Shown here piece after piece: positions 12,546 to 35,142 of a stretch of DNA of 64,000 nucleotides (positions within the stretch are counted from its first letter, which is position 1; each line of letters starts with the position of its first letter). This DNA is from Lacrimispora amygdalina. Lineage in GTDB: Bacteria; Bacillota; Clostridia; Lachnospirales; Lachnospiraceae. The position numbers were made by a program, and so were the translations under genes. Where the stretch lies: NCBI RefSeq assembly GCF_003432035.1, contig NZ_QOHO01000052.1, positions 1-64,000 on the forward strand. Direction: 5' to 3'. Below the pieces are notes generated by a model that did not search any database, had not been told where the DNA came from, and was given only the letters and a program-made list of their open reading frames with translations.

Positions 12546-12567
12546 AGACGATTGCTGCCCGCTGAAA

Positions 12568-12600
12568 TGTCTGGACGCGCAGGAAGATTCAGGATATAAT
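12568..12600 (+). promoter_or_regulatory. Promoter-like TGTCTGGACGC / TATAAT site
   Basis: A -35-like TGGACG (12572-12577) and a perfect TATAAT (12595-12600) are 17 bases apart. The block TGTCTGGACGC around the -35 recurs with the same spacing before the large recombinase genes at 52.5 kb. It would give the DUF6550 and surface-protein genes their own transcript. Confidence 0.55.
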
Positions 12601-12674
12601 GAAGTTGGGTAAAAACAGCGATACGGGTAAATAGGGCTGAACCATTCATAACAATATGAAAGTGAGGCCATCAT

Positions 12675-13190: not shown

Positions 13191-13207
13191 AACGGAATAA
13201 CCTATTC

Positions 13208-13248
13208 AGAGGGATACAGCTATTGATTGGCTGTATCCCTCTTTTTTT
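13208..13248 (+). terminator. Strong intrinsic terminator, directly before next ribosome site
   Basis: AGAGGGATACAGC (13208-13220) pairs perfectly over 13 bases with its complement at 13230-13242, followed by a T7 run. The T run touches the GGAGGTGG ribosome site of the following surface-protein gene, so it separates DUF6550 from that gene or gates read-through into it. Confidence 0.9.
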
Positions 13249-13260
13249 GGAGGTGGAAAC

Positions 13261-14937: not shown

Positions 14938-14946
14938 GAGGAACTT

Positions 14947-15582: not shown

Positions 15583-16278
15583 ATGGAGGGACTTTTATTC
15601 CCGATTATTATGCTGACCGTCACCCTTGTGGGTGGCGGTCTTTTGCTTTTGTTCCTGAAAACGGCGAAGAAACGGCCGGTATCAGACGAAACGGCAATCT
15701 CCGTACAGACTGCACAGCAGTTTATCAATGTGCGGGATGTGAAAGACAAGTACCTATACACCAAGGATGGTTTGGTTTTGACCTATCTGCGTGTCCATGC
15801 AATCAGCATTGACTTATACAGCAAAGCCGAAAAAAACAACCTGATCAAGCAAATCACCGCCGAGCTTTCGGACATTCAGTATCCGTTCAAGTTTATGGCG
15901 GTAAGCCGCCCTGTGGATATTTCGCCCTTGATTTCTGATATGCAGGGAATGTTAAAGACCGCTGATGATAAGCGGAAAGAGCTTTTGCGGCAGGAGATTT
16001 TACAGATGAGCAGCTTTGCCCTGTCCGGCGAAATTGTCGAGCGCCAGTTTTATATTTCCCTTTGGGATCGCTATGAGGACGGCGTGGAAAAGGATTTGCT
16101 CAAACGGGCATCCCTGCTGGCGGAGAAGTTTACCACCAATGGAGTCGGCTGTGACATATTGACGGAAAAGGAAATCGTGCGGCTTTTGAACCTTGTCAAC
16201 AACCCCTCCTATACCCACTTGGAGGATACGGATTTTGAGGCCGGTATTCCCATGCTAAAGGAGGACATTTATGCCTAA
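15583..16278 (+). CDS. VirB4/TrbE N-terminal-domain protein
   Basis: A 231-residue protein with one N-terminal membrane helix (residues 5-26) and then a domain resembling the N-terminal part of VirB4/TrbE ATPases (QFINVRDVKDKYLYTKDGLVLTYLRVHAISIDL), without a P-loop. The next gene supplies the motor domain and overlaps it by eight bases, so VirB4 is made as two polypeptides with an extra membrane anchor on the first. A GC-rich stem followed by TTTT sits at 15615-15644, 32 bases after the start. Confidence 0.75.
   Translation: MEGLLFPIIMLTVTLVGGGLLLLFLKTAKKRPVSDETAISVQTAQQFINVRDVKDKYLYTKDGLVLTYLRVHAISIDLYSKAEKNNLIKQITAELSDIQYPFKFMAVSRPVDISPLISDMQGMLKTADDKRKELLRQEILQMSSFALSGEIVERQFYISLWDRYEDGVEKDLLKRASLLAEKFTTNGVGCDILTEKEIVRLLNLVNNPSYTHLEDTDFEAGIPMLKEDIYA
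15615..15644 (+). promoter_or_regulatory. Terminator-like hairpin early in the VirB4 N-terminal gene
   Basis: GACCGTCACCC (15615-15625) and GGGTGGCGGTC (15630-15640) form an 11-bp stem with one G-U pair and a TTGT loop, followed by TTTTGCTTTTG. It lies 32 bases into the reading frame. It could stop transcription when translation fails. Confidence 0.45.
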
Positions 16279-18109
16279 AAAACAAGCAATACAGGAACGG
16301 GATATTATAAATGCCGCCCTGCTCAATGTGATTACCCCTGTGGGGCTGGAGTTTACCAAGAACAGCCTTTCCGTGGGGGAAAACCTCGGTAAGATTTACG
16401 GGCTGATCCGTTATCCGCAAAAGGTGGAAACGGAGTGGCTTTCTAAAATAACCAATATCCCCTCAACCATTGCATCCATTGGCTTTAAGCCGGTGGACAA
16501 TGCTACCCTCATCAATGCCATCTCCCGAAGTGTGGTGCAGCAAAGAGGACTGGCAGAGGGCGCCAAAGACCCTCTATCTCGTCAGCGTGCGGAAAAAGCT
16601 GCCGAGGACGGCGAAAAAATTATCATGCAGATCGACCGTGAAGGGGAAACGGTGGGGCTGATGAGCGTGTCCGTCATGCCGATTGCCAAGGACGAGCGCA
16701 CGTTCAAAAAGGTATGCCGCCGTGCGGAGAGTATCATCAGCGTTCTCAAATGTAAAATGCGTGTCATCCCCAATCTGCAAAAGGAGTGCTTTCAGCACCT
16801 TTCCCCGTCTTTTCCCACCAACGGAAAGATTGAAAGCATCCTGCAAAAAATCGTGCCGCTGTCCACCTTTGTGGGCGGCTTTCCTTTTGCCAGCTCCGGT
16901 TTCAATGACGGAGAGGGTTACTACCTTGCACTGGACGCCAGCGGCAGCCTTGTTATTGTGGACATCTGGCGGCGCGGCAGCGATAGGACAAACAGTAATT
17001 TTGTCATTATGGGCAATTCCGGCGTAGGCAAAAGCACCGCCATCAAACATATCATCATGTCCGAGTACATGAAAGGCACAAAAATTATTGTAATCGACCC
17101 GGAAAGTGAATATAAAGACCTCTGCTATAATCTCGGCTGCGGCGGCGATTGGGTCAACGCTGTGGGCGGCGCCGGTGGCCGGTTCAATCCTCTCCAGGTC
17201 CGCCCGTCCCCCCGTGATGATGAGCAGGAAAATGAAGCCGACCGGCTGTACCGTGATGAAGGCTACGGCATGAACGATCTTGCCCTGCACATGAAGAACC
17301 TTGAAATCTTTTTCAGCCTTTATATTCCGTCGCTGACCGATATGCAAAAGGCGGTCCTTAAAAAGAGCCTTGTGGAGCTGTACCGGAATTTCAACATCAC
17401 ATGGGACACCGACGTGGCGGCACTTTCGCCGGAGGACTTTCCCATCTTTTCCGATCTGTATAAGTTGGTAAAAGAAAAAGCGGATACCGAACAGGACAGG
17501 CAGGCTTATGCCGACCTTTCTCTGCTGCTTTATGACATTGCCGAAGGCTCAGACAGCTTTATTTGGAACGGCCACACTACCATTAAAAGCGAAAGCCGGT
17601 TCGTTTGTCTGGACACCAATGCCCTCCAAGGAACCAGCGATAATATCAAGAGAACACAGTATTTTAACCTCTTGACATACTGCTGGGAGCAGATGAGCCG
17701 AAACCGGGATGAACGGGTGCTTTTGATTTGCGACGAGGCGTATTTGATGATCGACCAAAAAGTGCCGCAATCCCTTGTTTATCTGAGAAATGCCATGAAA
17801 CGTGCAAGGAAATACGAGTCTGCCTTGGTCATTATCTCCCATAGCGTTATCGACTTCTTATCTGAGAGCATCAAGCAGTATGGGCAGGCACTTCTTGACA
17901 TCCCGTGCTATAAGCTCCTGATGGGAACAGACGGCCCCAATCTAAAGGAAACAGCCAAGCTCTACGACCTCACCGAAGCCGAACAGGAACTTTTGCTGGC
18001 TCGGAAGCGTGGACACGCCCTCTTTATGGTAGGGGCGAAACGCCTGCACATCAACTTTGAGATTCCTGACTACAAGATGATGTATATGGGTAAGGCGGGT
18101 GGTCGCTGA
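16271..18109 (+). CDS. virB4: VirB4-like conjugation ATPase
   Basis: A 612-residue ATPase with Walker A GNSGVGKST (residues 249-257), Walker B VLLICDEAYLMI near residue 493 and the conserved VirB4 block YFNLLTYCWEQMSRNRDER before it. VirB4 energises type IV secretion at the membrane. The length and the NSLSVGENLGKIYG start match the VirB4-like ATPases of clostridial ICEs (CD1110 type). The ATG at 16271 has its own AAAGGAGGAC site inside the end of the previous gene. The stop overlaps the next start by one base. Confidence 0.93.
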   Translation: MPKKQAIQERDIINAALLNVITPVGLEFTKNSLSVGENLGKIYGLIRYPQKVETEWLSKITNIPSTIASIGFKPVDNATLINAISRSVVQQRGLAEGAKDPLSRQRAEKAAEDGEKIIMQIDREGETVGLMSVSVMPIAKDERTFKKVCRRAESIISVLKCKMRVIPNLQKECFQHLSPSFPTNGKIESILQKIVPLSTFVGGFPFASSGFNDGEGYYLALDASGSLVIVDIWRRGSDRTNSNFVIMGNSGVGKSTAIKHIIMSEYMKGTKIIVIDPESEYKDLCYNLGCGGDWVNAVGGAGGRFNPLQVRPSPRDDEQENEADRLYRDEGYGMNDLALHMKNLEIFFSLYIPSLTDMQKAVLKKSLVELYRNFNITWDTDVAALSPEDFPIFSDLYKLVKEKADTEQDRQAYADLSLLLYDIAEGSDSFIWNGHTTIKSESRFVCLDTNALQGTSDNIKRTQYFNLLTYCWEQMSRNRDERVLLICDEAYLMIDQKVPQSLVYLRNAMKRARKYESALVIISHSVIDFLSESIKQYGQALLDIPCYKLLMGTDGPNLKETAKLYDLTEAEQELLLARKRGHALFMVGAKRLHINFEIPDYKMMYMGKAGGR

Positions 18110-21153: not shown

Positions 21154-21352
21154 ATGTCTGAAAAATACGATTTTATATGGAAAATCGCCGATCTGCTCCA
21201 CCAGCAAAGCAAGTAATGGTAATGTGATATTGCCGTTCACGCTTCGCTCAAGTTTAGATAGCGTTCTTGCACCACGAAGGATAAGGTGTTGGAGTTTGAG
21301 AAAACATTGCAGTACAAAATAAGATGCTCAAGGAGGCCGCAGTATGGCAAGC
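21154..21352 (+). pseudogene. hsdM: Relic of type I restriction methylase gene hsdM
   Basis: An ATG two bases after the antitoxin stop opens MSEKYDFIWKIADLL, the standard HsdM N-terminus, but a stop follows at codon 21. Further on, in other frames, VILPFT (about 21222-21240), then SVLAP, VLEFEKTLQYK and NKMLKEA follow in HsdM order up to the WYL gene start. Several small deletions and frameshifts are needed to read it. So a type I restriction system once occupied this position and was replaced by the WYL-led operon. Confidence 0.7.
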
Positions 21353-22333
21353 TCATCAAACCAAAAGTTGAAGCTCCTGTATCTGATGAAGATATTATTT
21401 GAACGGACTGATGTACAAGTACCCATGACGATTGCTGAAATCGTAGAGTCGCTTGCCGGATATGATATCAAGGCAGAGCGCAAATCCCTTTATAGCGACA
21501 TGGAGCTCTTACGGCAGTTCGGTGTTGATATTGAAATGCAGCGCGGCAAGACGGTCGGGTATTACATTGCCGAACGGCAGTTTGAATTGCCGGAATTGAA
21601 GCTACTGGTTGACGCCGTGCAAAGCTGTCGCTTTATTACCAAGAGGAAAAGCGAAGAACTGATAAAAAAGCTCTCCTCGCTCACAAGCAGCCAGCAGGCC
21701 AAACAGCTTCGCCGTCAGGTTTTTGTGGCAGATCGTGCAAAGACTATCAATGAAACAGTCTATTACAGCATCGATCAGATCCATCATGCCATCGGCGAAG
21801 GCAAAAAAATCGCCTTCCAGTATTTTGACTATGATGTTAAGAAGAAACGGGTTTTCCGGAGGCGGGGAGAATTATACCTCACTACCCCTGTCAGCCTTTG
21901 TTGGAACAACGACAATTACTATCTGATCGCTTACAGCGCAAAATATGATGATTTTACACATTACCGGGTTGACCGAATGAGCGGCGTTGAGGTGTTGGAT
22001 GAGGATGGCGACTCGTTTGATATGGACAAGTTTAATATTGCCGAGCACGCAAAGCGCGCCTTCGGTATGTACGACGGAGAGCTTGTGCGGGCAAGGTTGG
22101 CATTTGATAAGAGCCTTGTCAATGTAGTGCTCGACCATTTTGGCAAGGATGTCCTCATGCTCCCTTCCACGGACGGCTGGTTTGAAATCTCGGTTCATGT
22201 GTCGATCAGCCCGGTATTTCTGGCATGGGTGTTCCAGTTTGGCGATTGCGCCGAGATAAAGGAACCTGACAGCTTGATTGTGGCTATGAGAGAGCTTGCG
22301 GAAAAAAGCATACGGAGATACTCCGCAGAATGA
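21344..22333 (+). CDS. WYL-domain transcriptional regulator
   Basis: A 329-residue protein: N-terminal winged helix (residues 1-80, LKLLYLMKILFERTD ... DIKAERKSLYSDMELLRQFG), WYL domain (about 145-230, FQYFDYDVKKKRVFRRRGELYLTTPVSLCWNNDNYYLIAY, HYRVDRM) and a C-terminal WCX-like domain. WYL regulators of this layout often stand before anti-phage operons (BrxR/CapW type) and repress them until a ligand appears. The start at 21344 uses CAAGGAGG, which lies in the hsdM relic. A TATAAT element follows the gene, just before the putative defence operon. Confidence 0.88.
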   Translation: MASSSNQKLKLLYLMKILFERTDVQVPMTIAEIVESLAGYDIKAERKSLYSDMELLRQFGVDIEMQRGKTVGYYIAERQFELPELKLLVDAVQSCRFITKRKSEELIKKLSSLTSSQQAKQLRRQVFVADRAKTINETVYYSIDQIHHAIGEGKKIAFQYFDYDVKKKRVFRRRGELYLTTPVSLCWNNDNYYLIAYSAKYDDFTHYRVDRMSGVEVLDEDGDSFDMDKFNIAEHAKRAFGMYDGELVRARLAFDKSLVNVVLDHFGKDVLMLPSTDGWFEISVHVSISPVFLAWVFQFGDCAEIKEPDSLIVAMRELAEKSIRRYSAE

Positions 22334-22350
22334 AATTACTGTCCGTACCA

Positions 22351-22373
22351 TTGGACACTATTTTTGGTATAAT
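22351..22373 (+). promoter_or_regulatory. Extended -10 promoter before defence-like operon
   Basis: TGG-TATAAT (22365-22373) is an extended -10 element 46 bases before the first operon gene. A TTGGAC at 22351 is too close to serve as a -35, which suits an extended -10 promoter under control of the WYL regulator encoded just upstream. Confidence 0.5.
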
Positions 22374-22418: not shown

Positions 22419-23462
22419 ATGAATCTGGCAGGTCAGCTTGTCATTCATAAGACATTCGGCGAGGGAAAGGTGATAGACCATACAGGAGGCTATCTTTCCG
22501 TTCTGTTTGGCGAGAGTGAGAAGCGATTCATATATCCCGACTCATTTCAGGTGTTTTTGCGGGCGAAAGACGAAACGCTTCACACCGCTATCCAAAATGA
22601 ACTGGCAGAAGCGCAGGCCCAAAAACAACTGCTACAACATGAAAAAGATAGTGTCGCATTGCTTGAAAGAGAAAAAGTGGCTGAAAAACGCTTTGTACCA
22701 ACAAAGCCAAAAGAAAGGGTTTACCCACGCGCCAATATCGCTTTCAAATGTAATTATTGCAATGGCGGCAAGTCATCGGAGCGGATCGGCTTTCATGGCG
22801 TATGCTCCGAGGCGGTCATCCGCTATAACATAAAAGAAAAGAATCATGTTTGGTGCTCATCGCCGGATTCGCCCTGCCGCCAGTATTATGACGGAATGAT
22901 CTCGTCCTACTCTGAGCTTGAAGATGTTTTTAACCGGGACGGGTCTGTTTGCTATGAAAGTGCCATGCTGCGTGATTGGAGCGCCTTTGCGGGTATTACT
23001 CATACAGGTGAAAATAAAGGGCGGCCCATGAAGCTAAAACAGGTTCAGATCAACAGCCTGGCCGTGCTGACCACAAGATTGCCGAATGAGCCGGAGGAAA
23101 ATAGATTCATCTTTGCTGTTTTCTTGGTGGATGATACATATGAGGGCGATGCGCGGGAGGAAGGGTATGTATCGACTACTTCTCGCTATAAAATCGAAAT
23201 GATGCCGAACGAGGCGCAAAAGCTAAGATTTTGGAACTACTACTCCTGCCCCAATGCCCCCGATGTGGTTAAGTTCGGGTCGGGACTTCACAGATACTTG
23301 TCTGATGAACAAGCGGCTCAGATTCTCAGGGACATTACCGCAATCAAAAAGGGGACGGCGCAGGAAGCCCTCGCCGGGGAGTTCTTAGCTCACTTTAGCA
23401 GGGTCAACGGCATCGACATTGAGGGAATCCCGCAAAACGGCGGTGCCTTGGCATTCAAATAA
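22419..23462 (+). CDS. Cys-rich protein, first gene of defence-like operon
   Basis: A 347-residue protein. Residues 1-45 (LVIHKTFGEGKVIDHTGGYLSVLFG, RFIYPDSF) look like a small beta-barrel of the CarD/RapA type that often binds nucleic acid or polymerase. A charged helical region follows, then a probable zinc site CNYC ... HGVCSEA ... WCSSPDSPC around residues 110-155. The C-terminal half is a mixed domain with no motif I know. The start at 22419 follows GGAAGGAGG; the longer open frame overlaps the WYL gene. Similar proteins may carry misleading metabolic labels in databases. Function unknown. Confidence 0.7.
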   Translation: MNLAGQLVIHKTFGEGKVIDHTGGYLSVLFGESEKRFIYPDSFQVFLRAKDETLHTAIQNELAEAQAQKQLLQHEKDSVALLEREKVAEKRFVPTKPKERVYPRANIAFKCNYCNGGKSSERIGFHGVCSEAVIRYNIKEKNHVWCSSPDSPCRQYYDGMISSYSELEDVFNRDGSVCYESAMLRDWSAFAGITHTGENKGRPMKLKQVQINSLAVLTTRLPNEPEENRFIFAVFLVDDTYEGDAREEGYVSTTSRYKIEMMPNEAQKLRFWNYYSCPNAPDVVKFGSGLHRYLSDEQAAQILRDITAIKKGTAQEALAGEFLAHFSRVNGIDIEGIPQNGGALAFK

Positions 23463-23481
23463 CACGAAAGAAGGGTAAGCC

Positions 23482-24651
23482 ATGCAGCTTGGATGGATAG
23501 ATTTTTCGCGCAGTGAACGCAACAAGATCATACAGACTCTAAAAATGCTTGAGGAATCCACCGCGCTGGACGAGCTTGGGATTGGTGTGGTCCGTGACGG
23601 GTATGCCGATATTCTCTTTCCGGGCATTTCAACGCTTCAAACGAGAGCCAAATACTTTGTGCTTCTCCCATATTTGTTCGCAATGGCGGAGCGGCAAAGC
23701 TTTAAGCGCAGCAGCGAGATATTGCCGTGGATGCACAGGCAGGAGGATTTGCTTGTTCCCACGCTTATTAAAAACAGCGAGGATACCACCGGCGTGATCG
23801 GCCTTCGGGCGCATAAGCAAGGAAAATCGGTGAAGGTGAAATCCTCAAGTATTTATTGGAACGGGATGCGAACCTTTGAGATTTTAAGGGACGAGCATCT
23901 GTCCATATCCAATGTTTGCAATATCATTTATGGTAAACAGCTGCGCAGAAATTCGGTTGAAATTAAGACCGAAGCAAAATCAGGCGGCACCGAAGGGTTT
24001 GACGATGAAACAGCGGGTAACGAAAATATGCCGTTGTTTTCGAGCATCACGCCAGACTATGCAATCATGACCGAGGCGGCGATAGAACTGACCAAAACGG
24101 AGGCCGAGTATCTGTATCAGAAGATGACCACGGCTGTCGGGTCTCGCGCTTCCTTGCTTGCTTTCATGTTAAGAGAGAAGTGTCTGTTTCCGAGTTTCCA
24201 AGACATCAATGAGGAAATCCTGCCGGATGATCTGCGGCGTTCCGTTGAGCTTGCGAAGGCCTTCGCTCATTTTATTTCGGGCGCGCACACCCGCTACAAT
24301 GTGATTTTTTCAAACGGCGAGGATGCAGACCAAACCGAGAGATACCGCGAATGGCAGGGAACCTTTGATTTTGACGGCTTTCATTTATCGGACGTTCTTT
24401 CGAGGATAAATGGGAACCTGCTTACCAATGCGTTTTTGAAGGAATTTTATGAGGTCTCTAAGGCAGGAAATGACCAGGCCGTTGACAGGCTGATTATCCA
24501 GCGCGAGAAATCCATTAAGCGGGAGCGGGCGAAGCTGGGCAAGCCGCAAGAGTATCGGTATGACAAGCCGGTACACGATTATTTGCTAAATTATCGCTAT
24601 GGTACAGCGTACACGATTGTAAACGATATTTTGAGAGGATTGGAGGGATAG
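23482..24651 (+). CDS. DUF6361-family protein
   Basis: A 389-residue soluble protein starting MQLGWIDFSRSERNKIIQTLKMLEES, then TALDELGIGVVRDGYADILFPGISTLQTRAKYF, the pattern I associate with DUF6361. No catalytic motif is evident; the C-terminal third is helical and charged. It sits between the Cys-rich protein and the phospholipase D-like protein, two bases from the latter, so it is probably an obligate part of the same machine. The association with a helicase and a nuclease-like protein supports a role in DNA-targeting defence, by inference. Confidence 0.75.
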   Translation: MQLGWIDFSRSERNKIIQTLKMLEESTALDELGIGVVRDGYADILFPGISTLQTRAKYFVLLPYLFAMAERQSFKRSSEILPWMHRQEDLLVPTLIKNSEDTTGVIGLRAHKQGKSVKVKSSSIYWNGMRTFEILRDEHLSISNVCNIIYGKQLRRNSVEIKTEAKSGGTEGFDDETAGNENMPLFSSITPDYAIMTEAAIELTKTEAEYLYQKMTTAVGSRASLLAFMLREKCLFPSFQDINEEILPDDLRRSVELAKAFAHFISGAHTRYNVIFSNGEDADQTERYREWQGTFDFDGFHLSDVLSRINGNLLTNAFLKEFYEVSKAGNDQAVDRLIIQREKSIKRERAKLGKPQEYRYDKPVHDYLLNYRYGTAYTIVNDILRGLEG

Positions 24652-24653
24652 GT

Positions 24654-26390
24654 ATGGCCAGAACTCTGTTTGACTATGAAGAGAATCGCCTTGACTACGG
24701 CGGTTTGCTGACGCCGGACATCGGCTACGATGTCGATTTTGCTGTCGCATTTACCTATTCCCTCGACTTGGAAGCCTTATTGGGTGTTCCCGTGTCTCTG
24801 GGGCTGCTGGATGATGATATGGATACAGGACTAATCGACAATCCCTTTTTCCTATTGGAAGCCATCAGAAAAAGCAGCGATAAGATCGCCATCTTCTGCA
24901 ATGCCGGAAGCATCGCCCTCCCTCGCAATATCCGCAGTGTGTTCGCTCTGTTGGAAAACAGCGTTTTTGAAGTCGATCTCAGCGGGATGAACAGCTTTCA
25001 CCCGAAAATGTGGTTTATCAAATACACCAATGATGCGGGCGATTCCTACATAAAGCTGATTGTTCTCAGTCGGAACCTCACCTTTGACCGCAGCTTTGAC
25101 TATGCCGTGGAGATGACAGGCAAAATTGGGAATCGAAAGCTGAGTAAAAACAAGCCGCTTTCGGATATGCTCCAGTTCACCGCCAAATATGCCGGAGCTC
25201 AGAAGAGAAAGAAGCTACTCGCTTTGGCTGAGGATATTATGCGCGTGAAACGGTTTGAATTGGACGACCGATTTGAGGACTATGATTTTCTTCCGCTCGG
25301 TATCACACCCGGCGCGGCAGAAAGCACAGGGCTTTTTGAGAGCTGCAATGATCTCATTGTTTTCTCGCCATTTTTAAGCTCCAATATGGTCGGGAACTTG
25401 GCGAACAATGCGAGGTACAGGAAAACCCTCTTTACCCGCAAGAGTTCTTTGAACCGAAAGATCATTGGTCTGTATGATGATGTCTATATTACGAAGGACA
25501 TTGTAATGGACAATGAAATCATGTCCGAGGGCGAGGCTGAGCCAAAAGGGTGCGATATTCATGCCAAACTATATTTTACGCGCGGCGGCAATGGAAACTT
25601 CCTGTATGTCGGGTCAGCCAACGCCTCCGATAAAGCCTTTTATAACAATGTTGAATTCTTGCTGAAGCTGAAATACAAGCCGTATATGGCAAGCTATGAT
25701 GCCTTGCTCAAAGAACTATTGCCGGAGGACGGCTGCCCGTTTGAGCGCATTGCGGACATTGAAACGGAAGAACAGGCGGAAGATACGAGCCTTTTGGACA
25801 AGTCCTTCCGTGAGGCGCTGCGCAGTATAAAAAACGCAACCGTCACCGCCGATGGCGAACGCTTCTCTATTACTCTGCGGACAAATGGAAAGCCCTTAGA
25901 AAAGGCGGTATATATTGCTCCATTGTTTCGGGCGGGTAGCTTTGCCCCGTTGACAGATGGACTTGTTTTTACGGATATGCTGCTAAAAGAACTGAGCGAG
26001 TTTTTTATCATAAAAATTGAGGATAAGCAGATTGTAACAAAAGTCACTTTGGTCGGCATTCCCGAAGGCCGCGATCAGGCAATTTATAAAAGCATCATCC
26101 AAGATAAAAACGGGTTTTTGGCCTATGTTTCGTTCATGCTTTCGGATAACTACTCCGAGAGCTGCTTTGAGCAATATGAACTGGCAAAACAGCTTTTGGA
26201 CGACGCCGACACGCCGCAGGCTGTCATTCCCGCCGCACTCTATGAGAGAATGTTAAGCTGCACCGTAAATAACCCCTCCCGCTTGCTCGACCTTGATCAC
26301 CTGATGAGCAAGCTGGGTGACGATATTGTAGGCGATTTTGTGGCGATGTACCAGCCGTTTAAGGAAATCGCAAAGAGGATGATAAGATGA
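24654..26390 (+). CDS. Phospholipase D-like nuclease (two HKD motifs)
   Basis: A 578-residue protein with two phospholipase D-type active-site motifs: FHPKMW (His116, Lys118) followed by LSRNLT, and IHAKLY (His303, Lys305) followed by VGSANASDKAF. Two HKD motifs in one chain can form one complete active site, as in PLD nucleases. Family members in defence loci (for example DISARM DrmC) sit next to helicases, as here. The helicase gene overlaps by four bases. Residues 390-578 form an additional, unrecognised C-terminal domain. Nuclease rather than lipase activity is inferred from the company it keeps. Confidence 0.83.
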   Translation: MARTLFDYEENRLDYGGLLTPDIGYDVDFAVAFTYSLDLEALLGVPVSLGLLDDDMDTGLIDNPFFLLEAIRKSSDKIAIFCNAGSIALPRNIRSVFALLENSVFEVDLSGMNSFHPKMWFIKYTNDAGDSYIKLIVLSRNLTFDRSFDYAVEMTGKIGNRKLSKNKPLSDMLQFTAKYAGAQKRKKLLALAEDIMRVKRFELDDRFEDYDFLPLGITPGAAESTGLFESCNDLIVFSPFLSSNMVGNLANNARYRKTLFTRKSSLNRKIIGLYDDVYITKDIVMDNEIMSEGEAEPKGCDIHAKLYFTRGGNGNFLYVGSANASDKAFYNNVEFLLKLKYKPYMASYDALLKELLPEDGCPFERIADIETEEQAEDTSLLDKSFREALRSIKNATVTADGERFSITLRTNGKPLEKAVYIAPLFRAGSFAPLTDGLVFTDMLLKELSEFFIIKIEDKQIVTKVTLVGIPEGRDQAIYKSIIQDKNGFLAYVSFMLSDNYSESCFEQYELAKQLLDDADTPQAVIPAALYERMLSCTVNNPSRLLDLDHLMSKLGDDIVGDFVAMYQPFKEIAKRMIR

Positions 26391-29359
26391 GACCGAAGGA
26401 TTTTCAAGAAGCGACGGCACGACGGATCGTCGAAATATTTGAAAAAGAGAAGCAGAATCGGGTTTTGCTCGCCGATGAGGTCGGTCTTGGCAAGACCATT
26501 GTTGCGCGCGCAGTTGTTGGTAAGGTGTCGGATTGGCACAGGAAGATGGGCGACAAGCATTTTAAGGTCGTATATATTTGCTCCAACATTAACATTGCCA
26601 ACCAAAACTCAAAAAAGCTGGGCATTCGTGACGAGGACTGTTTGAGAGTATCGGAGAGCCGTTTGTCCATGCAGCATTTGAAGATATATCAAAATCAAGG
26701 CCGAGACCACAGCTTTCAGCAGCTCATTCCCCTTACCCCCGCAACCTCCTTTTCGATGACAGGGGGCTGTGGAAACCAAGAGGAACGTGCGCTAATGTTC
26801 GTCCTGTTGCGCCGCCTTCCGGCATTTCGGGAGCTATCCGGGTTTTCGGACTTCATGCGTTATTATGAGCTAAAAAATTGGGATTACTTTGTCAACCTGT
26901 ATGAAGGACAGGTTGTGTCCTGTGATGAAAATGGAAGCGGGTACATTTCCATCATGATGGCGGCTCTGAATCAGGCAATCCCAAACGGGATGATCCGTGA
27001 AATACAGGCTGTCTGCCATAAAGCCGCCCCGGAGGACAGATGGCGCAGCCGCGACATGATCAATTCGCTTCGCCGCATCTTTGCGCAGATCAGCCTTGAT
27101 AAGTTAGAGCCGGATCTTGTTATCATGGATGAGTTTCAGCGTTTTCGAGATTTAATCGCCCCGGCCGACGATGAAACGGGTATGCTCTCCAAGAAGTTCT
27201 TGCAGGACAGCGCCACAAAGGTTCTGCTTCTGTCGGCAACCCCTTACAAGCCGTACTCGACGCTTGAGGAAATCGGCCAGAATGAATCCTTTGACCACTA
27301 CCGGGAGTTTATGCAGGTGATGGACTTCCTTCTGTATGACGCTCGAAAAAACGCCGAGTTCAAAAGCGTTTGGCGAGACTTTTCGCATTCCCTCTCGGAG
27401 CTAAACACCGAAAGGCTCACCGTCCTCTATGCCAACAAGTCCAATGCGGAAAACGCCTTATACGGCAGTATTTGCCGCACAGAGCGGTTCAGGGCGGGGA
27501 TGATCGACGCTTCAAAAGCCGCAGAGATTGAGATTGGCCGGAACGATATCCTCTCCTTTGCCGAGATGCAGAGGTTTTTGAATGAATATAATATCGGCAA
27601 TGTGCCGGTTGACTATGTGAAATCCGCGCCTTACCTTTTGTCATTCATGGAGAGCTATAAGCTGAAAGAAAACATCGTGAAGCAGTACAAGGCAAGGCCT
27701 AACGCTCAGCTATTAAAGCATTACAAGACCATGCTGCTGCGTAAAATCGACTTGAATACCTATAAGAAGGTGGACTCCGGCAATGCGAGGCTCCAATACC
27801 TAATGGACACCGTATTCGACGGTGGAAGGTCGTGCATGGAGAAATTGCTGTGGCTGCCGCCGAGCAAGCCGTATTACAAAACCGCCAGAGTGTTTCGGGT
27901 CGGCAGTCCTCTCTCAAAGGTGCTTGTTTTTTCAAGCTGGGAGATGGTTCCCCGTATGATTGCCAGTATGCTGTCTTATGAGGCGGAACGGCTGAACTGT
28001 GTAAAAATCAATGAGAACAAAGAAAATAAACCCAAACGTTACTTCGCCGCCGACAGCCTTGAAGCTGATAGCAAGCGCAAGCGCCGCATTGTGGTTGTGC
28101 GTCTAAGGGACTACGCGGAAAAGGTTGTATCGTATCCCTGCAAGAAGCTGGGCGAGCTTTACGATCCCCTTGAATATCTTGGGCGCGGCCTTGATTCTGT
28201 TCAAAAAGATGTCGCTAAAAAAGTACGCGCACTGCTTGGGCAGATCAAAATTAAGTATGGACTTTCTGAGGGGCGCGGCAGCGCAAAAGACTATTTCAAC
28301 GTTATGTACCACCTGTTTGACGGCTTTGAGGGAGAAATGCCGTCCGTCATCCCCCATAACGCGGAGGCTGTTTTTACCAACATAGCTATTGCTTCGCCTG
28401 CGGTATGCGCCTATCGGCTGTTTAAAAACGATGAGCAGGCGGATACCTTAGCGGAGAACTTTGTATCGCTTTTTAACAAAACCGAGTCAATGGACATTTT
28501 GGATGTTCTCTACGGAAAGAGCGATGACTTTTATTATGAGGCTGTCCTTCGTTACTGTGCGGAGGGGAATTTGCAGGCTGTCCTTGATGAGTGGGCATAT
28601 GTCTTGGGTGAGAAGGGTGATGACCTATTAGAATCCATGCAGGGCTCGTTTCTTGGCACGGCATCGGTTCAGGTGGATACCTACGAATCGTTTTCCGGCC
28701 AATCGGCAAAGCCGAGGATGAGAAACCATTTTGCCGTAGGCTATTTTAACGCTCGGTTGGATGATAAAAATGTTCAGCGGACGGAAAGCATACGCTTGGC
28801 TTTCAATTCACCGTTCAGGCCCTTTGTCCTTGCAACTACATCAATCGGGCAGGAGGGCTTAGACTTTCACCTGTACTGCCGGAAAATATGCCATTGGAAC
28901 TTGCCCTCAAATCCTGTTGATCTGGAGCAGCGCGAGGGGCGCATCAACCGCTATCTGTGCCTTGCGATCCGCCAAAGCATCGCACAGAAGTATGGAAGCA
29001 TAGCGTTCCACACCGACGTCTGGGACGAGATGTTTCATGCGGCCAGTGAAGCCGAAAAGCAAGACCTTTCCGACTTAGTCCCCTTTTGGTGTCTGCCTGA
29101 CGATGGCAGTAACGCGGTGAAGATTGAGCGTATTGTACCGATGTATCCGCTCAGTAAGGATCGCCTTGTATACGAACGCTTGGTAAAGGTACTCACGCTT
29201 TACCGTCTTACATTGGGGCAGCCGCGCCAAGAGGAACTCCTTGACGCAATTCATGCCGCCGAGCTGGATGACGAGGCCCTCGACAAGCTGTTCATAAATC
29301 TCAGTCCGTATTTCAGAAACGGACAGGCTTGCGGCAAGAAAGTGGAGGCGCTGATATGA
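26387..29359 (+). CDS. SNF2/DEAD-type superfamily 2 helicase
   Basis: A 990-residue helicase. Motif I is LLADEVGLGKT (residues 27-37), motif II is MDEFQRF (247-253, DEFQ in place of DEAH), motif III is LLSATPYKPY (281-290), and motifs V-VI are SIGQEGLDF and LEQREGRINR near residues 825-855. An N-terminal QEATARRIV resembles a Q-motif. About 500 residues between SAT and the C-terminal helicase lobe form a large insertion. Such helicases are core parts of several anti-phage systems. It is coupled by ATGA overlaps to the PLD gene before and the HD gene after. Confidence 0.9.
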   Translation: MRPKDFQEATARRIVEIFEKEKQNRVLLADEVGLGKTIVARAVVGKVSDWHRKMGDKHFKVVYICSNINIANQNSKKLGIRDEDCLRVSESRLSMQHLKIYQNQGRDHSFQQLIPLTPATSFSMTGGCGNQEERALMFVLLRRLPAFRELSGFSDFMRYYELKNWDYFVNLYEGQVVSCDENGSGYISIMMAALNQAIPNGMIREIQAVCHKAAPEDRWRSRDMINSLRRIFAQISLDKLEPDLVIMDEFQRFRDLIAPADDETGMLSKKFLQDSATKVLLLSATPYKPYSTLEEIGQNESFDHYREFMQVMDFLLYDARKNAEFKSVWRDFSHSLSELNTERLTVLYANKSNAENALYGSICRTERFRAGMIDASKAAEIEIGRNDILSFAEMQRFLNEYNIGNVPVDYVKSAPYLLSFMESYKLKENIVKQYKARPNAQLLKHYKTMLLRKIDLNTYKKVDSGNARLQYLMDTVFDGGRSCMEKLLWLPPSKPYYKTARVFRVGSPLSKVLVFSSWEMVPRMIASMLSYEAERLNCVKINENKENKPKRYFAADSLEADSKRKRRIVVVRLRDYAEKVVSYPCKKLGELYDPLEYLGRGLDSVQKDVAKKVRALLGQIKIKYGLSEGRGSAKDYFNVMYHLFDGFEGEMPSVIPHNAEAVFTNIAIASPAVCAYRLFKNDEQADTLAENFVSLFNKTESMDILDVLYGKSDDFYYEAVLRYCAEGNLQAVLDEWAYVLGEKGDDLLESMQGSFLGTASVQVDTYESFSGQSAKPRMRNHFAVGYFNARLDDKNVQRTESIRLAFNSPFRPFVLATTSIGQEGLDFHLYCRKICHWNLPSNPVDLEQREGRINRYLCLAIRQSIAQKYGSIAFHTDVWDEMFHAASEAEKQDLSDLVPFWCLPDDGSNAVKIERIVPMYPLSKDRLVYERLVKVLTLYRLTLGQPRQEELLDAIHAAELDDEALDKLFINLSPYFRNGQACGKKVEALI

Positions 29360-30615
29360 AGGGTGATTACATTACCACTTATACAAAGCTATCCTTCTCG
29401 CCGCTTGACCCAAAGCCGGAGGACATACGCATTGCCGACATAGCCCATGCCCTGTCTTTGATGACACGGGCAAACGGCCATTTTAAGTGGTTTTATTCCG
29501 TTGCCCAGCACTCCATTAATTGCGCCCTTGAAGCGCAGGCAATGGGATGTGACAGAAAGGTACAGCTTGCTTGTCTTTTACATGATGCAAGCGAGGCCTA
29601 TCTATCTGACATAACGCGCCCCGTCAAAAAGCACTTGCCGTCATACCTTGAAATTGAAAACAAACTGCAAGGCACGATCCATCAGGTGTATGGACGTTCT
29701 CCGACGGATGCGGAACACGCTGTTGTAAAGCAAATTGATGATACGATGCTATGGCATGAGTTTTTCGTGTTGATGGATGAACGGGTTTACGAGCCAAAGC
29801 CTATCATACATAGCAGGCCGGATTTTTCTGAACGTCCATTTCGGGATGTGGAAAATCAGTTTCTTTGGCTGTTTAACTCGTTGTCCAGAGAGGGCAAAAC
29901 GCACAAATGTGTTGGGATTGATGGAACAAAGGGCGGTTGGATTGCGGCGTGTATAAAGGCTGATGCAGTCAGCATTCAGTTGTATCGCACAATCCATGAG
30001 CTGTGTGCGGAGTATTCCGATGCCGATAGTATTCTAATCGACATTCCGATTGGGTTGCCGGAAAGCGATACGGATATTCGTCCTGACAATATGTTGAGAA
30101 ACCATCTAAAAGGTAAAGCATCCAGCGTCTTTAATACCCCTTGCAGACAGGCTGTATATGCTGCCGATTACGAAGGCGCTAACGCCACAAACAAGGCTGT
30201 GATGGGAAAAGGCCTCAGCAAACAATCTTTTGCGATTTGCGAAAAAATTGAGGAAGTGGATGCGTTTTTACAAAGCAATCCTGCTTGGAAAAACAGGCTT
30301 GTAGAAAGCCACCCTGAATATGGGTTTGCCATCCTCAATGTCGGCGCTCCTGTTTTGGAAAGCAAAAAGGAACAAGCTGGGGTGAGCGCCCGAATCTCCT
30401 TGCTGCGTCCGCAAATCGCCGACCTTGACGGCCTTCTCACCAAAGTATCCGGTGATGCTGCCGTTAAAAATCGTCTCCACGATATTCTTGACGCGCTTTG
30501 TCTTGCTGTCATCGGAGAATTGGGGATAACACATGGATTCTGCACATTGCCTGATCTGCCCCCAACAGACAGCAAGGGCTTGAAAATGCAGATTGTTGGC
30601 TCAAAAGTAGAGTAG
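29356..30615 (+). CDS. HD phosphohydrolase fused to DUF429 domain
   Basis: A 419-residue two-domain protein. The first 130 residues form an HD domain with His31, His52, HD at 76-77 and Asp129, close to YfbR-like 5'-deoxynucleotidases and phage HD proteins. Residues 185-415 match DUF429 (CVGIDGTKGGWIAA, ILIDIPIGLP, FNTPCRQAVY, ESHPEYGF), an RNase H-fold family with a predicted nuclease role. A nucleotide hydrolase joined to a possible nuclease within a defence-like operon suggests nucleotide depletion or nucleic-acid processing. The start at 29356 overlaps the helicase stop. Confidence 0.82.
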   Translation: MKGDYITTYTKLSFSPLDPKPEDIRIADIAHALSLMTRANGHFKWFYSVAQHSINCALEAQAMGCDRKVQLACLLHDASEAYLSDITRPVKKHLPSYLEIENKLQGTIHQVYGRSPTDAEHAVVKQIDDTMLWHEFFVLMDERVYEPKPIIHSRPDFSERPFRDVENQFLWLFNSLSREGKTHKCVGIDGTKGGWIAACIKADAVSIQLYRTIHELCAEYSDADSILIDIPIGLPESDTDIRPDNMLRNHLKGKASSVFNTPCRQAVYAADYEGANATNKAVMGKGLSKQSFAICEKIEEVDAFLQSNPAWKNRLVESHPEYGFAILNVGAPVLESKKEQAGVSARISLLRPQIADLDGLLTKVSGDAAVKNRLHDILDALCLAVIGELGITHGFCTLPDLPPTDSKGLKMQIVGSKVE

Positions 30616-30641: not shown

Positions 30642-32276
30642 ATGCTTGGAGCAATTGTCGGCGACATCGTAGGGTCGCGGTTTGAGTTTAATAATCACAG
30701 AAGCAAGGATTTTGAACTGTTCGGTGAGAGCTGCTTCGCTACCGATGACAGCATTATGACACTTGCCGTCGCCAAGGCCATTATGGAAGCAGCCAAGGTT
30801 AAGGTGTCCTCCGAGAGCGACTATCATGCCCTTCTATCCAGCCTAACCGTGAAGTATATGCAGGAGATCGGCCGCAAGTACCCGAACTGTGGCTACGGCG
30901 GGATGTTTTCCCGTTGGATATTCGGCCACCACCCGGAGCCGTATCACAGTTTCGGCAACGGCGCGGCCATGCGGGTCAGTCCCGCGGGGTTTGCCGCCGC
31001 TACGGAGCTGGAGGCGGAAGCTCTCTCGGAAACAGTAACCGCCGTAACCCACAACCACAACGAGGGAATCAAAGGCGCAAACGCAGTGACGATTGCGATT
31101 TATTTGGCTCGCCAAGGCGCATTGAAAAGCGAAATACACGAGCGCATTGAGCGTGATTATTACCCATTGAATTTTGGGATTGACAATATTCGTCAGTCCT
31201 ATCGCTTTAACGAAACTTGTCAGGAAACTGTGCCGCAAGCGATCAAGTGCTTTCTAGAATCCGACTCCTTTGAAGACGCCATTCGTACGGCTGTATCCCT
31301 CGGCGGCGACAGCGATACCATTGCCGCTATCACGGGGGCTATCGCCGAGGCTTACTACGGCGTTCCCGCCGACATAAAAGAAAAAGCCCTCGCCTTTTTG
31401 GAAGAGGAGCTTCACGCGATTTATGATGAATGGCTGGCGTTTGTCCCTGCGGGCGACGAGAAGTTCAAGGTGCTTACAAAGTATATCGGCAAGCTTGATG
31501 TGGCCGATTCATTCGGCGAATGGATGATTGACCGTGAAAATGACGGAACACCTGAACATCCGATACAAATGCCGTGGGTCGGATACAGTGGGTTGGTTAG
31601 AGCTTTTGAGAACGAGTTCTATCGGTTTGCGGAAGACCATCCTGAGTACGAGCATACCCGTTACGGCGAAATACTGGAAAAACACAATATTCCTTGGGGC
31701 TGGGGCAGCCGAGAAATGCACGAAGCAGATGTTTCGGGTTTTGACGCACAGTGTGTCCTCGCCCTTATTACAGGCGCAATCCGGGCCGAACGGTTCTGTG
31801 ACGGCGCTTTGCTTGCGTTCTTCAAGGATGGTTCGATCTCACGATGGCTGAAACGGCTGAAGGACATTGACTGGAACAGGCGTCCAAAGCGGATTGAAGA
31901 AATTGTCTTTGAGCTCGGCGGCTCCTTTGGCGGGCATACCGTTTATCGCCTGTCCTTTACCGATTCCGGCGCAAAGCTGATCCAATCTGATAGACGGGAT
32001 GAAGATAACATCTTCGATACAGAGGAATACTCAGAAAGCGAAGCTATCCTGTTGTCGGAACAGTTTTCCGCAATTCACACCGAGTATTGGAACGCCGATT
32101 ACGTTGTCCCTCATATTTGCGATGGGGAGCAATGGGGCTTGGCGGTGCGGTATTCGGACAGGCAAACCCTTGAACACGGCGGGAGTAATGCATATCCTTC
32201 CAACTGGTTTAAACTGCTTGACTTTTTTGGAATTGAGCATGAAGAAAGCGAGGACGCTAATGAATCCCCTGATTGA
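30642..32276 (+). CDS. ADP-ribosylglycohydrolase fused to DUF6508-like domain
   Basis: A 544-residue protein. Residues 1-255 are an ADP-ribosylglycohydrolase: GAIVGDIVGSRFEF, metal-binding TDDS (34-37) and GGDSDTIAAITGAIAEAYYG. Residues about 270-395 match a DUF6508-type domain (FGEWMIDRENDGTPEHPIQMP ... AERFCDGALLAFF). The last 150 residues are a third, unknown domain. The enzyme would remove ADP-ribose from proteins or nucleic acids; in a defence setting it could reverse a toxin's modification or counter a phage ADP-ribosyltransferase. The start at 30642 follows GGAGGG. Confidence 0.8.
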   Translation: MLGAIVGDIVGSRFEFNNHRSKDFELFGESCFATDDSIMTLAVAKAIMEAAKVKVSSESDYHALLSSLTVKYMQEIGRKYPNCGYGGMFSRWIFGHHPEPYHSFGNGAAMRVSPAGFAAATELEAEALSETVTAVTHNHNEGIKGANAVTIAIYLARQGALKSEIHERIERDYYPLNFGIDNIRQSYRFNETCQETVPQAIKCFLESDSFEDAIRTAVSLGGDSDTIAAITGAIAEAYYGVPADIKEKALAFLEEELHAIYDEWLAFVPAGDEKFKVLTKYIGKLDVADSFGEWMIDRENDGTPEHPIQMPWVGYSGLVRAFENEFYRFAEDHPEYEHTRYGEILEKHNIPWGWGSREMHEADVSGFDAQCVLALITGAIRAERFCDGALLAFFKDGSISRWLKRLKDIDWNRRPKRIEEIVFELGGSFGGHTVYRLSFTDSGAKLIQSDRRDEDNIFDTEEYSESEAILLSEQFSAIHTEYWNADYVVPHICDGEQWGLAVRYSDRQTLEHGGSNAYPSNWFKLLDFFGIEHEESEDANESPD

Positions 32277-32715
32277 GTTTGATGAGATAATCCTTGAAGT
32301 AACAAAGCTGCTGGGCAAGCCTGTTGATAAAAAGCGATATGAGATTGTCGACAGAGGTATGCCGCATGAGCCCAAAATGTTGCCGTTCGGCAAGATGGGA
32401 ATTTACACCTTTTGGCATAACGGAATTGCTTTGAAAATCGGCAAAGCTGGCCCTAAGAGCAACGCAAGATTTTTGAGCCAGCATTACAACCCCAAGTCTG
32501 CACAAAGCACGTTAGCAGCCTCAATCCTGTCGGATCAGTCGATGACGCACCTTGATGTTTCAGAAGCCACCACCGGCGATTGGATAAAAAGAAATTGCAG
32601 AAGAATCGACATCCTGTTAGATGCTGATTTAGGGGTTTTTACATTGGAGCTGATTGAGGCGGCTCTCCATTATAAGTACGAGCCAAAGTATGAAGGCTTT
32701 TTGGCGCAGCGGTAA
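32260..32715 (+). CDS. GIY-YIG-like nuclease domain protein
   Basis: A 151-residue protein. MGIYTFWHNG (residues 46-55) then ALKIGKAGPKSNARF (57-71) fit the GIY and YIG strands with the conserved Arg70; a Glu in TLELIEAALHYKYEPKYEG (128-146) fits the metal-binding position. This is a divergent GIY-YIG endonuclease-type domain. It starts inside the end of the glycohydrolase gene (ATG 32260; ATG 32239 is the alternative), so translation is coupled. Confidence 0.55.
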   Translation: MNPLIEFDEIILEVTKLLGKPVDKKRYEIVDRGMPHEPKMLPFGKMGIYTFWHNGIALKIGKAGPKSNARFLSQHYNPKSAQSTLAASILSDQSMTHLDVSEATTGDWIKRNCRRIDILLDADLGVFTLELIEAALHYKYEPKYEGFLAQR

Positions 32716-32757: not shown

Positions 32758-35142
32758 ATGATAGATACTACTACCGAGCTTCAAATCGAAATCATGTCCT
32801 ATGACAACTTAGAAAAATCTGTTGCGTATGATTTGGACAGGATACTCTTTGATTTGGATAGCAAAATAGCTTTATTATCGAACCAAGCGGATAACCTTGA
32901 CTACCTGGTTGCTATCGGCAGCGGGGTGCTGTGTGGTTTGCTCGACGTTCTTTGGGTTGGCGATTTTAGTTTGGAGCGAGGTCGTGGCATTGCGAGCGAG
33001 GAAATAGATAGCCTTGTCACAAAAACAGCGAAGCTATTGGGTTGCAAAGAGGATGATTTAAAATCAGCCGTAGGATTTCTTGAAAAGAAATTTCAGATAC
33101 CAAGCGACGGCAACACGCCGGACTTTGGAGGCGGCTTACAGCATCATCTTCGTGACTTCGCACATCACCCGACTATTGTCGGACTGGTATTTTCGTTCCT
33201 TACGCAGTTTACTTATAGGTCATACGGCACAGATGTCAACGGAGTATTTAAAATTGCAGATGTTACAGAAGCGAGCAAACAGTTCATCGGCAAGGATGTC
33301 CCATCGAAAATACTCTTTGGAACAATCACTTGGTTCTTTCACCTTGTAAGCGATGTGGCCGGTTCAAGCGGTTCTGTTGGCAAAAGCGGCGGCACCGGAA
33401 TACCCGGTCCCCTACTTGCTTTGGCGAAGGAACTGTCCGTGCTTCCTGTTTTTAAGAACATAAATGTCGGCGACAATTCACTATCCGTTTTTTTATCAAA
33501 ACTCTTTAACGGCACTTTGCTCGCAGGGCATGACGAATCCGGCAGGATTATCAAAGACACCGTGGTGAAGTTTGATTTGCGGGGCGAACTCGGCGTTGGA
33601 ATCGAACTTGGCCGGCAGGCGATTCCTGTTGTCGCAAATGAATGCATCGTAAGAAGTTTCTATTTCATTCGCCGCCTTGCAATGGAAATACGCGAAAACG
33701 ATATTTGCTCTGTCACAGGTTTAAAACAGATTGAATGGAGCAAAGTTAAGCCGCTGAATAATCCCACCATAAGCAGAATGCTTACGATTTCAACAGGCGT
33801 ATTTACTACCGTCGATGTCGGCGAAGCAATTATCGCTCAAAAATACTGGGTGTCTATCAACTACGTTGGCATTGGACGGTTCGCCGTTGCTATCGGCGAG
33901 GATGTTACTTGGTGTTTGAAAGCCAGAAACATCAAGAACATAAGGCAAATGTATGAGGATATCAAACGGTTTACGTACACGCAATCCGATGAAAACATTT
34001 ATAAAAGAATGGGTGCCGATATGAATATAGATAAGCTCGGCTTAACCGTTGAGCAAACGGAGATTCTATACAATCTCGAATACTACAAAACCCTAAACGA
34101 CATACAGTCCACGAAATTACTTGTTAACAACGAAGGTGTAAAACGTCTGAAACAGGACTGGCTTGATGAGTGGAAAGGATATATCTCAAAGGGTTTTTCA
34201 AGCTTCTTGCAAATTGAGGACGCTGAACTTCACTGGTATACGGAGCAAGAGCTGATCCGGAAATTCGAGGAAAATGAGCCGCAGAACACATGGTTCAGAC
34301 TGGTTCTTCTTGAAGCAATGCTTTTTGAGCCTTATTATCCTTTGGAGCTTGAAAAAGACAAAAAAGGCAATGATATACCGAGCAAAAAATTTAAAGATTT
34401 GCAGAACATTATTAACGGCTATAAAAAAGGCATCGGCGACGACTACCTTGATTCGTTTTTCTCTGGAAGCTATTATTCGAAAGGCTACATCAAGAGGCTT
34501 CGGAAGTGCTATGACAAAGTGCTGCGCGAACTGAATGAGGTTCTCAAAACAGTGATTACTTCGTTATCCATCACGGCCGTGATAGCGATTGCCGCTATTG
34601 CAACAGCAGGGGCATTCGCTCCGGCGATTGCCGTTGCGTTGGTCGGTTCGAATTTTGCGGGACTTAGCGGAGCCGCCTTAACAAGCGCTTGTCTTGCCTA
34701 TCTTGGCGGCGGTGCGATTGCGATCGGTGGTGGCGGAATGGCTGGCGGTACGATAGCTGTTGTCGGTGGCGGTGCAGTTTTGGGATTCGGTGTCGGTGCC
34801 GGTATCGGTGGTGCTGTCGGTGCTGTCGGCTTGCTTGGAAAGCAAAACACCATTTTACAGTCTGCAAAGCTCCTTATTTCAATCAGGGAAATATTCCTCA
34901 ATGACGAACATGATACCGTGTATTCAAACAGCGTATATGAGCAGTATGTGCAGAACATCATGGATATCGAAAAAGGTATAGTCGAATTGAAACTTCAAGC
35001 AGATGTGGCAAGTGGCAAAGAAAAGAAAGACCTAAAGGGTAGGATAAAGAAAGCTGAAGAGTCCGCTGAGGCTATGAAAATCGCAAGGAAAAACTTGAGA
35101 AAATTCATGAGTTCATTTGAAATTGGATTGTCACAAGAATAA
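32758..35142 (+). CDS. Large Gly-zipper membrane protein, unknown
   Basis: A 794-residue protein. Hydrophobic stretches near residues 50-75 and 135-150 precede a soluble middle. Residues about 595-700 are a long Gly/Ala-rich hydrophobic region (SITAVIAIAAIATAG ... GGGAIAIGGGG ... GVGAGIGGAVG), a glycine-zipper pattern found in pore-forming or membrane-inserting proteins. The C-terminus is a charged coiled-coil-like helix. Position and coupling to the next gene suggest a two-protein module. A membrane-disrupting abortive-infection effector is one possibility, by inference. I recall no named family. Confidence 0.6.
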   Translation: MIDTTTELQIEIMSYDNLEKSVAYDLDRILFDLDSKIALLSNQADNLDYLVAIGSGVLCGLLDVLWVGDFSLERGRGIASEEIDSLVTKTAKLLGCKEDDLKSAVGFLEKKFQIPSDGNTPDFGGGLQHHLRDFAHHPTIVGLVFSFLTQFTYRSYGTDVNGVFKIADVTEASKQFIGKDVPSKILFGTITWFFHLVSDVAGSSGSVGKSGGTGIPGPLLALAKELSVLPVFKNINVGDNSLSVFLSKLFNGTLLAGHDESGRIIKDTVVKFDLRGELGVGIELGRQAIPVVANECIVRSFYFIRRLAMEIRENDICSVTGLKQIEWSKVKPLNNPTISRMLTISTGVFTTVDVGEAIIAQKYWVSINYVGIGRFAVAIGEDVTWCLKARNIKNIRQMYEDIKRFTYTQSDENIYKRMGADMNIDKLGLTVEQTEILYNLEYYKTLNDIQSTKLLVNNEGVKRLKQDWLDEWKGYISKGFSSFLQIEDAELHWYTEQELIRKFEENEPQNTWFRLVLLEAMLFEPYYPLELEKDKKGNDIPSKKFKDLQNIINGYKKGIGDDYLDSFFSGSYYSKGYIKRLRKCYDKVLRELNEVLKTVITSLSITAVIAIAAIATAGAFAPAIAVALVGSNFAGLSGAALTSACLAYLGGGAIAIGGGGMAGGTIAVVGGGAVLGFGVGAGIGGAVGAVGLLGKQNTILQSAKLLISIREIFLNDEHDTVYSNSVYEQYVQNIMDIEKGIVELKLQADVASGKEKKDLKGRIKKAEESAEAMKIARKNLRKFMSSFEIGLSQE

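Follow-up and report, generated by a model that had tools for sequence, protein, structure and literature searches.

Azaca and the locus of Lacrimispora amygdalina

Azaca is an anti-phage system that Millman and colleagues reportedly described in 2022 as a set of three genes, ZacA, ZacB and ZacC, and DISARM, another described system, also has a PLD protein. Here we analysed a stretch of 64,000 nucleotides of Lacrimispora amygdalina (assembly GCF_003432035.1, contig NZ_QOHO01000052.1, positions 1 to 64,000 of the forward strand; referred to as the window), in which four consecutive genes between 22419 and 29359 encode a cysteine-rich (Cys-rich) protein, a DUF6361 protein, a PLD protein and a helicase. 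A sequence-only reading had taken these four genes as a core that is separable from the genes downstream. We found that the last three, as ZacA, ZacB and ZacC, make up the known Azaca system, and that the Cys-rich gene is an optional add-on to this three-gene core. For the locus as a whole we favour, with some reserve, a WYL-controlled Azaca with the Cys-rich protein as a portable recognition or recruitment accessory; the role of the accessory is drawn from its domain types and its recurrence.

In the passages of the literature consulted, Azaca is counted among the systems with a PLD-like domain (PMC10952713, citing Millman et al. 2022), ZacC is given as its helicase (PMC12278908), and two papers name it merely as one system among others (PMC12629846, PMC13379101). 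A literature search on DUF6361 found no paper, and one on ZacA/ZacB/ZacC nothing on the topic.

All four open reading frames (ORFs) lie on the forward strand where the sequence-only reading had placed them; they are separated by 19 and then 2 bases, the last two overlap by 4, and the family calls of that reading were right. ZacA (23482–24651) matches the PADLOC profile of that name over residues 2–388 (E 3.5e-85) and Pfam DUF6361 (E 1.5e-27). ZacB (24654–26390), a predicted PLD-type nuclease, matches its PADLOC profile at E 2.1e-139 and PLDc_2 at E 7e-06, 0.7 bits below the cut-off. ZacC (26387–29359), an SF2 helicase/translocase, matches its PADLOC profile at E 9.3e-282, with ResIII and Helicase_C over the cut-off. 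The locus resembles Azaca in all three proteins, in gene order and in the catalytic residues; it differs by the extra Cys-rich gene between a WYL gene and ZacA, and by ADP-ribose-type and other add-ons downstream. The four genes are not the most tightly joined ones, as had been claimed: the ATG of the next gene (29356) lies inside the ZacC stop, forming another 4-base overlap, so that gene spacing fails to split the core from the add-ons.

A likeness to DISARM and Dpd is also present. Part of ZacC matches DrmD (E 8.7e-14) and DpdE (E 7.2e-12), and DrmA as well, but at 49 bits against 936 for ZacC, and the neighbour proteins match ZacA and ZacB. When we looked for the DrmA/DrmB/DrmC core of DISARM with PADLOC at E 0.01, DrmD and DrmA were the only DISARM models to match, both weakly and on ZacC, with none on the other nine proteins. 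Membership in DISARM was rejected on these scores.

A constant three-gene core

We scanned species genomes with a ZacC alignment and took the best 80 of 467 relatives, which gave 79 loci; these include near copies (e.g. L104, L105, L114 and L117). The order ZacA-ZacB-ZacC on a single strand is found in the window and in 72 of the 79 relatives, while in the remaining seven a contig end lies at most 166 bases from the first gene found. Here, found is not the same as intact, since in L069 and L095 ZacB is split over two frames, as is ZacC in L109. Pairwise, the distance matrices of ZacA, ZacB and ZacC are correlated (Mantel r 0.90, 0.85 and 0.91 over 73 rows; highest of 300 permutations 0.18). 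The catalytic residues are likewise intact: in ZacB, the first HxK motif (H116/K118) is present in 70 of 72 rows, with two gaps, and the second (H303/K305) in all 72, and in ZacC, K36, D248 and E249 are present in every one of the 72 rows, R849 in 69 (three gaps) and R852 in 71 (one gap). The earlier proposal that the helicase is the motor and the PLD protein the nuclease is compatible with these conserved residues. ZacA is predicted to be nearly all helical (mean predicted local distance difference test, pLDDT, 91.0; predicted template modelling score, pTM, 0.87), with no clear match in PDB (Foldseek best E 0.43; VIA best Z 3.2), from which novelty of the fold does not follow.

In contrast to the triad, the Cys-rich gene is missing from every other Azaca locus that was found through ZacB or ZacC. 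We ran a Cys-rich profile on ORFs from all six frames of 89 loci, made up of the 79 and a further ten taken from whole genomes, and obtained zero copies; the gene is also absent among the called ORFs of three further loci (L161, L169 and L170), making 0 of 92; L168, the same locus as L103, was left out. The flanks searched reach up to about 10 kb per side and are often shorter. A separable core thus exists, as had been suggested, but it is ZacABC, and the Cys-rich gene stands outside it. The four closest relatives also carry ZacABC without the Cys-rich gene and differ in what precedes ZacA: in L063, WYL and ZacA are 41 bases apart with no gene between; in L064, WYL is followed by three other genes and then ZacABC; in L103, a gene of 350 amino acids precedes ZacA; and in L065, an HNH protein lies 0.8 kb before it. 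The stretch 5' of ZacA is a variable slot.

There is one other locus in which the two meet. In L173 (MT835621.1, a faecal contig filed as phage) the order is HsdR, ZacA, ZacB, ZacC, Cys-rich gene and ADP-ribosylglycohydrolase, the Cys-rich homologue lying 18 bases 3' of ZacC and being 48% identical to the window's copy; since this locus was found through the Cys-rich gene itself, it gives no unbiased count. In addition, a C-terminal extension of ZacC weakly matches the N-terminal barrel of the Cys-rich protein in L081 (E 8.3e-06) and L086 (E 3.6e-04). The tight operon of the window and the second four-gene operon in L173 would fit the view that all four genes form one obligatory machine, as the sequence-only reading had it. 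That view is contradicted as a general rule by ZacABC without the Cys-rich gene in all 72 complete loci and in the four closest relatives, and we hold it to be highly improbable; a four-gene core as a general rule was rejected on the count of 0 of 92.

A second Azaca lies in the same genome (L052, G000:C10:28000-47999, at 2273–12424), with its ZacC frame cut to 351 amino acids.

The Cys-rich protein and its predicted structure

The Cys-rich gene (22419–23462, forward strand) encodes 347 amino acids. The frame is open from 22296, but the start was placed at an internal ATG, 22419, because GGAGG stands just 5' of it and the starts of homologues agree. The protein has no Pfam match at E 0.1 and no NCBIfam match at E 0.01. 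A PADLOC match to PtuB1 (E 0.0017, residues 49–121) covers a long helix and was taken as chance. The AlphaFold2 model, made from a 22-row alignment, has a mean pLDDT of 90.7 and a pTM of 0.69, so that each domain is well defined while the arrangement of the domains is less certain. It consists of a Tudor-like barrel (about residues 1–50), a long helix (52–90), a six-cysteine segment (C111, C114, C129, C146, C153 and C178, all conserved among homologues) and a C-terminal domain. The N-terminal beta-barrel and the cysteine-rich segment named in the earlier reading are therefore both present, and its idea of a sensor or DNA-recruiting part is plausible.

The barrel resembles those of PcrA/UvrD Tudor domains and CarD (Z 6.9 to 5dma, 1.5 Å over 47 residues), and Foldseek gives the Tudor domain 7egt_B at E 0.013. 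Five of the 22 family members match PF21196, the best at E 0.0018, and the sole score shown is 13.9 bits against a gathering threshold of 23.9; the window's own copy gives no match to it at E 1. In contrast to PcrA/UvrD and CarD, the barrel here stands at the N terminus and its protein has no helicase domain, and the Pfam match is weak, lying under the cut-off where a score is shown.

Residues of about 101–310 align by VIA-align to seven entries of the EVE/THYN1 readers, namely 2p5d (Z 7.7, 126 residues, 3.8 Å), 1wmm and 2hd9 (7.3 each), 2ar1 (6.6), 1zce (5.9), THYN1 with DNA containing 5-methylcytosine (5j3e, 5.6) and 3eop (5.6), with every EVE-type Z under 8, the range where the tool warns of common chance arrangements. 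We take 2p5d, 1wmm, 2hd9, 2ar1 and 1zce to be of EVE type, while THYN1 and the bound 5-methylcytosine come from the entry titles. DrmAB of DISARM (7s9v) also aligns to the model (Z 5.8). The Cys-rich protein differs from these readers in carrying a six-cysteine segment and in having no sequence-profile similarity to them: Pfam EVE has no match among the 22 members, and EVE membership by sequence found no support, as hhalign stayed at the level of its controls. Because of these controls and the Z scores under 8, we treat the EVE likeness as a lead. In the passages seen of two papers, EVE and ASCH/PUA readers had earlier been linked to defence (PMC7641849, PMC12839542).

Cys-rich genes beside other systems

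We also followed the Cys-rich family outside Azaca. Among 398 genomes of the phylum, relatives occur in 25 and ZacB in 10, both being present only in the window's genome. Among 145 closer relatives, the numbers are 20 and 5, with both in the window's genome and in G458, where they lie on different contigs and the Cys-rich form matches without the cysteine segment. In fact, many Cys-rich relatives are shorter and have no cysteine segment. Among viral contigs, the queries A3, A1 and the L173 ZacC found no relative, and query A6 found one Cys-rich relative, L197. In L197, DUF6508 adjoins the Cys-rich gene.

The surroundings of 15 Zn-type homologues were then read, with PADLOC for the neighbours of four (L053, L165, L173 and L195) and by eye for the other 11. 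A recognised defence operon adjoins three of the 15. Besides L173, these are L195, a type I restriction operon in which HsdM, HsdS and HsdR are followed 15 bases on by a Cys-rich form without the barrel, and L165, from the same genus, with BrxL, a DUF4011 helicase, PDC-S11, the Cys-rich gene, WYL and JetDABC. In L053, a UvrD/GajB-like helicase lies 255 bases upstream of the Cys-rich homologue. The Cys-rich gene thus recurs beside a few other DNA-targeting systems. As for single homologues, that of L167 has internal stops, and that of L054 an extra C-terminal part, nuclease-like by eye and without a Pfam match. In L192, the end of the Cys-rich gene is overlapped by an ORF of 217 amino acids (10674–11327) with a match (E 2.5e-11) to the ADP-ribosylglycohydrolase/DUF6508 protein of the window; this may be a third way in which the Cys-rich gene and the ADP-ribosylglycohydrolase add-on are linked.

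The other 11 homologues (L054, L166, L167, L189–L194, L196 and L197) have no defence neighbour recognised by eye. Together with the absence from all 92 loci and the differing slot before ZacA in the closest relatives (no gene after WYL in L063, three in L064, the 350-amino-acid gene in L103), this would suit a mere passenger, that is, unrelated cargo carried at a variable position of a mobile defence island. Such a reading does not account for the separate operon joins to Azaca in L173 and to type I restriction in L195, nor for the barrel fused to ZacC in L081 and L086, and we think it unlikely. At the other extreme, the family may be an undescribed portable adaptor (Tudor, six-cysteine segment, EVE-like reader; unnamed, so that no literature search by name was made) that would plug into Azaca, type I restriction, BREX/PDC-S11 and perhaps UvrD/GajB-like helicases and extend them to phage DNA with modified bases, partly under a shared WYL operator; this wider proposal is a tentative one, which we would expect to fail sooner than to hold.

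The WYL regulator and a shared palindrome

Upstream of the Cys-rich gene lies a WYL-WCX transcriptional regulator of 329 amino acids (21344–22333, forward strand; Pfam WYL E 4.4e-11, WCX E 9.9e-11). Between the two genes stand an imperfect palindrome, TGTCCGTACCATTGGACA (22340–22357), a candidate WYL operator, and a sequence like an extended -10 promoter, TGGTATAAT (22365–22373). A pattern built from the palindromes of the window, L064 and L165 and run on 209 loci matches only copies of these three and L063. The site stands before WYL in L064 and L165, and in L063 it lies 125 bases before a gene of 348 amino acids that leads into WYL-ZacABC. In all four loci, a TG-N and a TATAAT-like hexamer follow 7 bases 3' of the palindrome, and the three other loci carry a close relative of the WYL protein. 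The four loci share this palindrome and promoter-like sequence. The window holds two matches with at most two mismatches, against 0.8 expected, and a promoter consensus scan of the region gave 16 promoter-like sites against 14.0 by chance, i.e. the chance level. The WYL protein probably regulates the operon, and if this candidate promoter is used, the regulated unit would in this copy begin with the Cys-rich gene.

The pair of WYL and Cys-rich genes is adjacent again in L165 (9078–11222, genome G409), 5' of the Wadjet III genes JetDABC and behind PDC-S11 and BrxL, the proteins being 52% and 49% identical to those of the window. This recurrence could mean that the two genes pair functionally, as a regulatory unit that heads different defence operons and is not part of Azaca; by their entry titles, several solved relatives of the Tudor/CarD-type barrel bind RNA polymerase or UvrB, which would suit such a unit. 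However, L173, L195 and L053 have the Cys-rich gene with no WYL relative in the stretch read, and in L063 and L064 WYL and Azaca occur together while the Cys-rich gene is missing. We regard a regulatory pair of this kind as doubtful.

Genes downstream of and around the core

Four add-on genes follow ZacC on the same strand. The first (29356–30615, 419 amino acids) has DUF429 (E 5.3e-51) and an HD domain (HD_3 E 0.00067, below the cut-off). The second (30642–32276, 544 amino acids) is an ADP-ribosylglycohydrolase (PF03747, E 1.2e-37) with DUF6508 (PF20118, E 2e-11). The third is a small ORF (32260–32715) of uncertain start, GIY-YIG-like by eye only and with no Pfam match over the cut-off. The fourth (32758–35142, 794 amino acids) is BnzB-like (PADLOC E 1.7e-45, best stretch 39–250) and has a hydrophobic glycine-rich stretch.

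These genes are far less constant than the core, as the sequence-only reading had foreseen, each occurring in 0 to 6 of the 79 loci against 72 for ZacABC. At E 1e-5, the 79 loci hold no relative of the HD-DUF429, small ORF, BnzB-like or Cys-rich genes, while relatives of WYL occur in five and of the ADP-ribosylglycohydrolase in six. Genes of ADP-ribose or NAD type (including macro, NADAR, PARG and Sir2) are present in 10 of the 79, nine of them downstream of ZacC; that in L127 is on the other strand. In the phylum, ADP-ribosylglycohydrolase gave 85 match rows, some of them split, in 54 of 101 genomes, roughly estimated at 0.3 per Mb. The flanks hold six in 0.90 Mb (Poisson about 5e-7 at an expectation of 0.28 and 6e-4 at 1.0), an enrichment that serves as a guide only because the background comes from a single phylum, unlike the 79 loci. 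DUF6508, fused to the ADP-ribosylglycohydrolase in the window, is part of a DUF6508-macro-NADAR fusion downstream of Azaca in L141 (11595–13241). In L090 (14583–17006), 1.3 kb after ZacC, a single protein joins an ADP-ribosylglycohydrolase domain with a type I DNA methyltransferase (HsdM_N and N6_Mtase).

The genome carries the BnzB-like gene twice, each time close to an Azaca locus (3.4 and 3.7 kb away); the copy in L052, about 3.7 kb from the second Azaca, is 64% identical to that of the window. Near-full-length matches among the 12 genomes searched occur only in the window's genome, each near Azaca. Upstream of the core, HsdR relatives stand on the same strand in 9 of the 79 loci, and in five of these HsdR overlaps ZacA or lies no more than 63 bases from it (L104 and L117 among the five being near copies), which suggests joint type I restriction-Azaca operons. 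With L173, this arrangement is seen in L081, L104, L112, L117, L141 and L173.

Elsewhere in the window, pilus-type and VirB4-like genes lie upstream (5339–18109) and four serine recombinase-like ORFs downstream (52635–57984), all labelled by eye; they suggest a defence island within a mobile element.

Proposed explanation and meaning

In a WYL-controlled Azaca with a portable accessory, as we propose, ZacC would translocate on DNA and ZacB would cut it, going by the conserved motifs and by what is known of these families, and ZacA may be a helical structural or coupling subunit, the coupler role being a guess. Like the barrel of PcrA/UvrD, the Tudor barrel of the Cys-rich protein would dock onto a partner, either a helicase or RNA polymerase, and the rest of the protein, with the cysteines and the C-terminal domain, might contact DNA, perhaps modified DNA. 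Acting at the palindrome, the WYL protein would repress or activate the unit. The genes downstream may be an interchangeable group in which ADP-ribose or NAD functions recur and whose task is a separate one.

Several results weigh against this explanation, in addition to the low EVE-type Z scores and the 11 Zn-type homologues described above. Barrels of the Tudor kind are common and the match to them is weak, and Foldseek of the Cys-rich model gave no match at E 0.001 or better. The hhalign comparison of the family with nine EVE sequences gave a probability of 0.15%, between two unrelated controls at 0.35% and 0.09%. Moreover, across 20 genomes of the genus, of which 18 hold at least one site, the 16-base palindrome pattern occurs 40 times and its reversed control 21 times, so the palindrome is not exclusive to these loci.

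In the passages on Azaca that we consulted, its mechanism is not described. The present analysis fixes the constant machine as a trio, ZacB and ZacC with their nuclease and motor residues intact and ZacA as a predicted helical protein, and sets it apart from the add-ons. The Cys-rich accessory poses the questions of whether an optional reader widens the range of a helicase-nuclease system and whether a single accessory can serve several defence systems, and the shared palindrome is a candidate switch open to testing.

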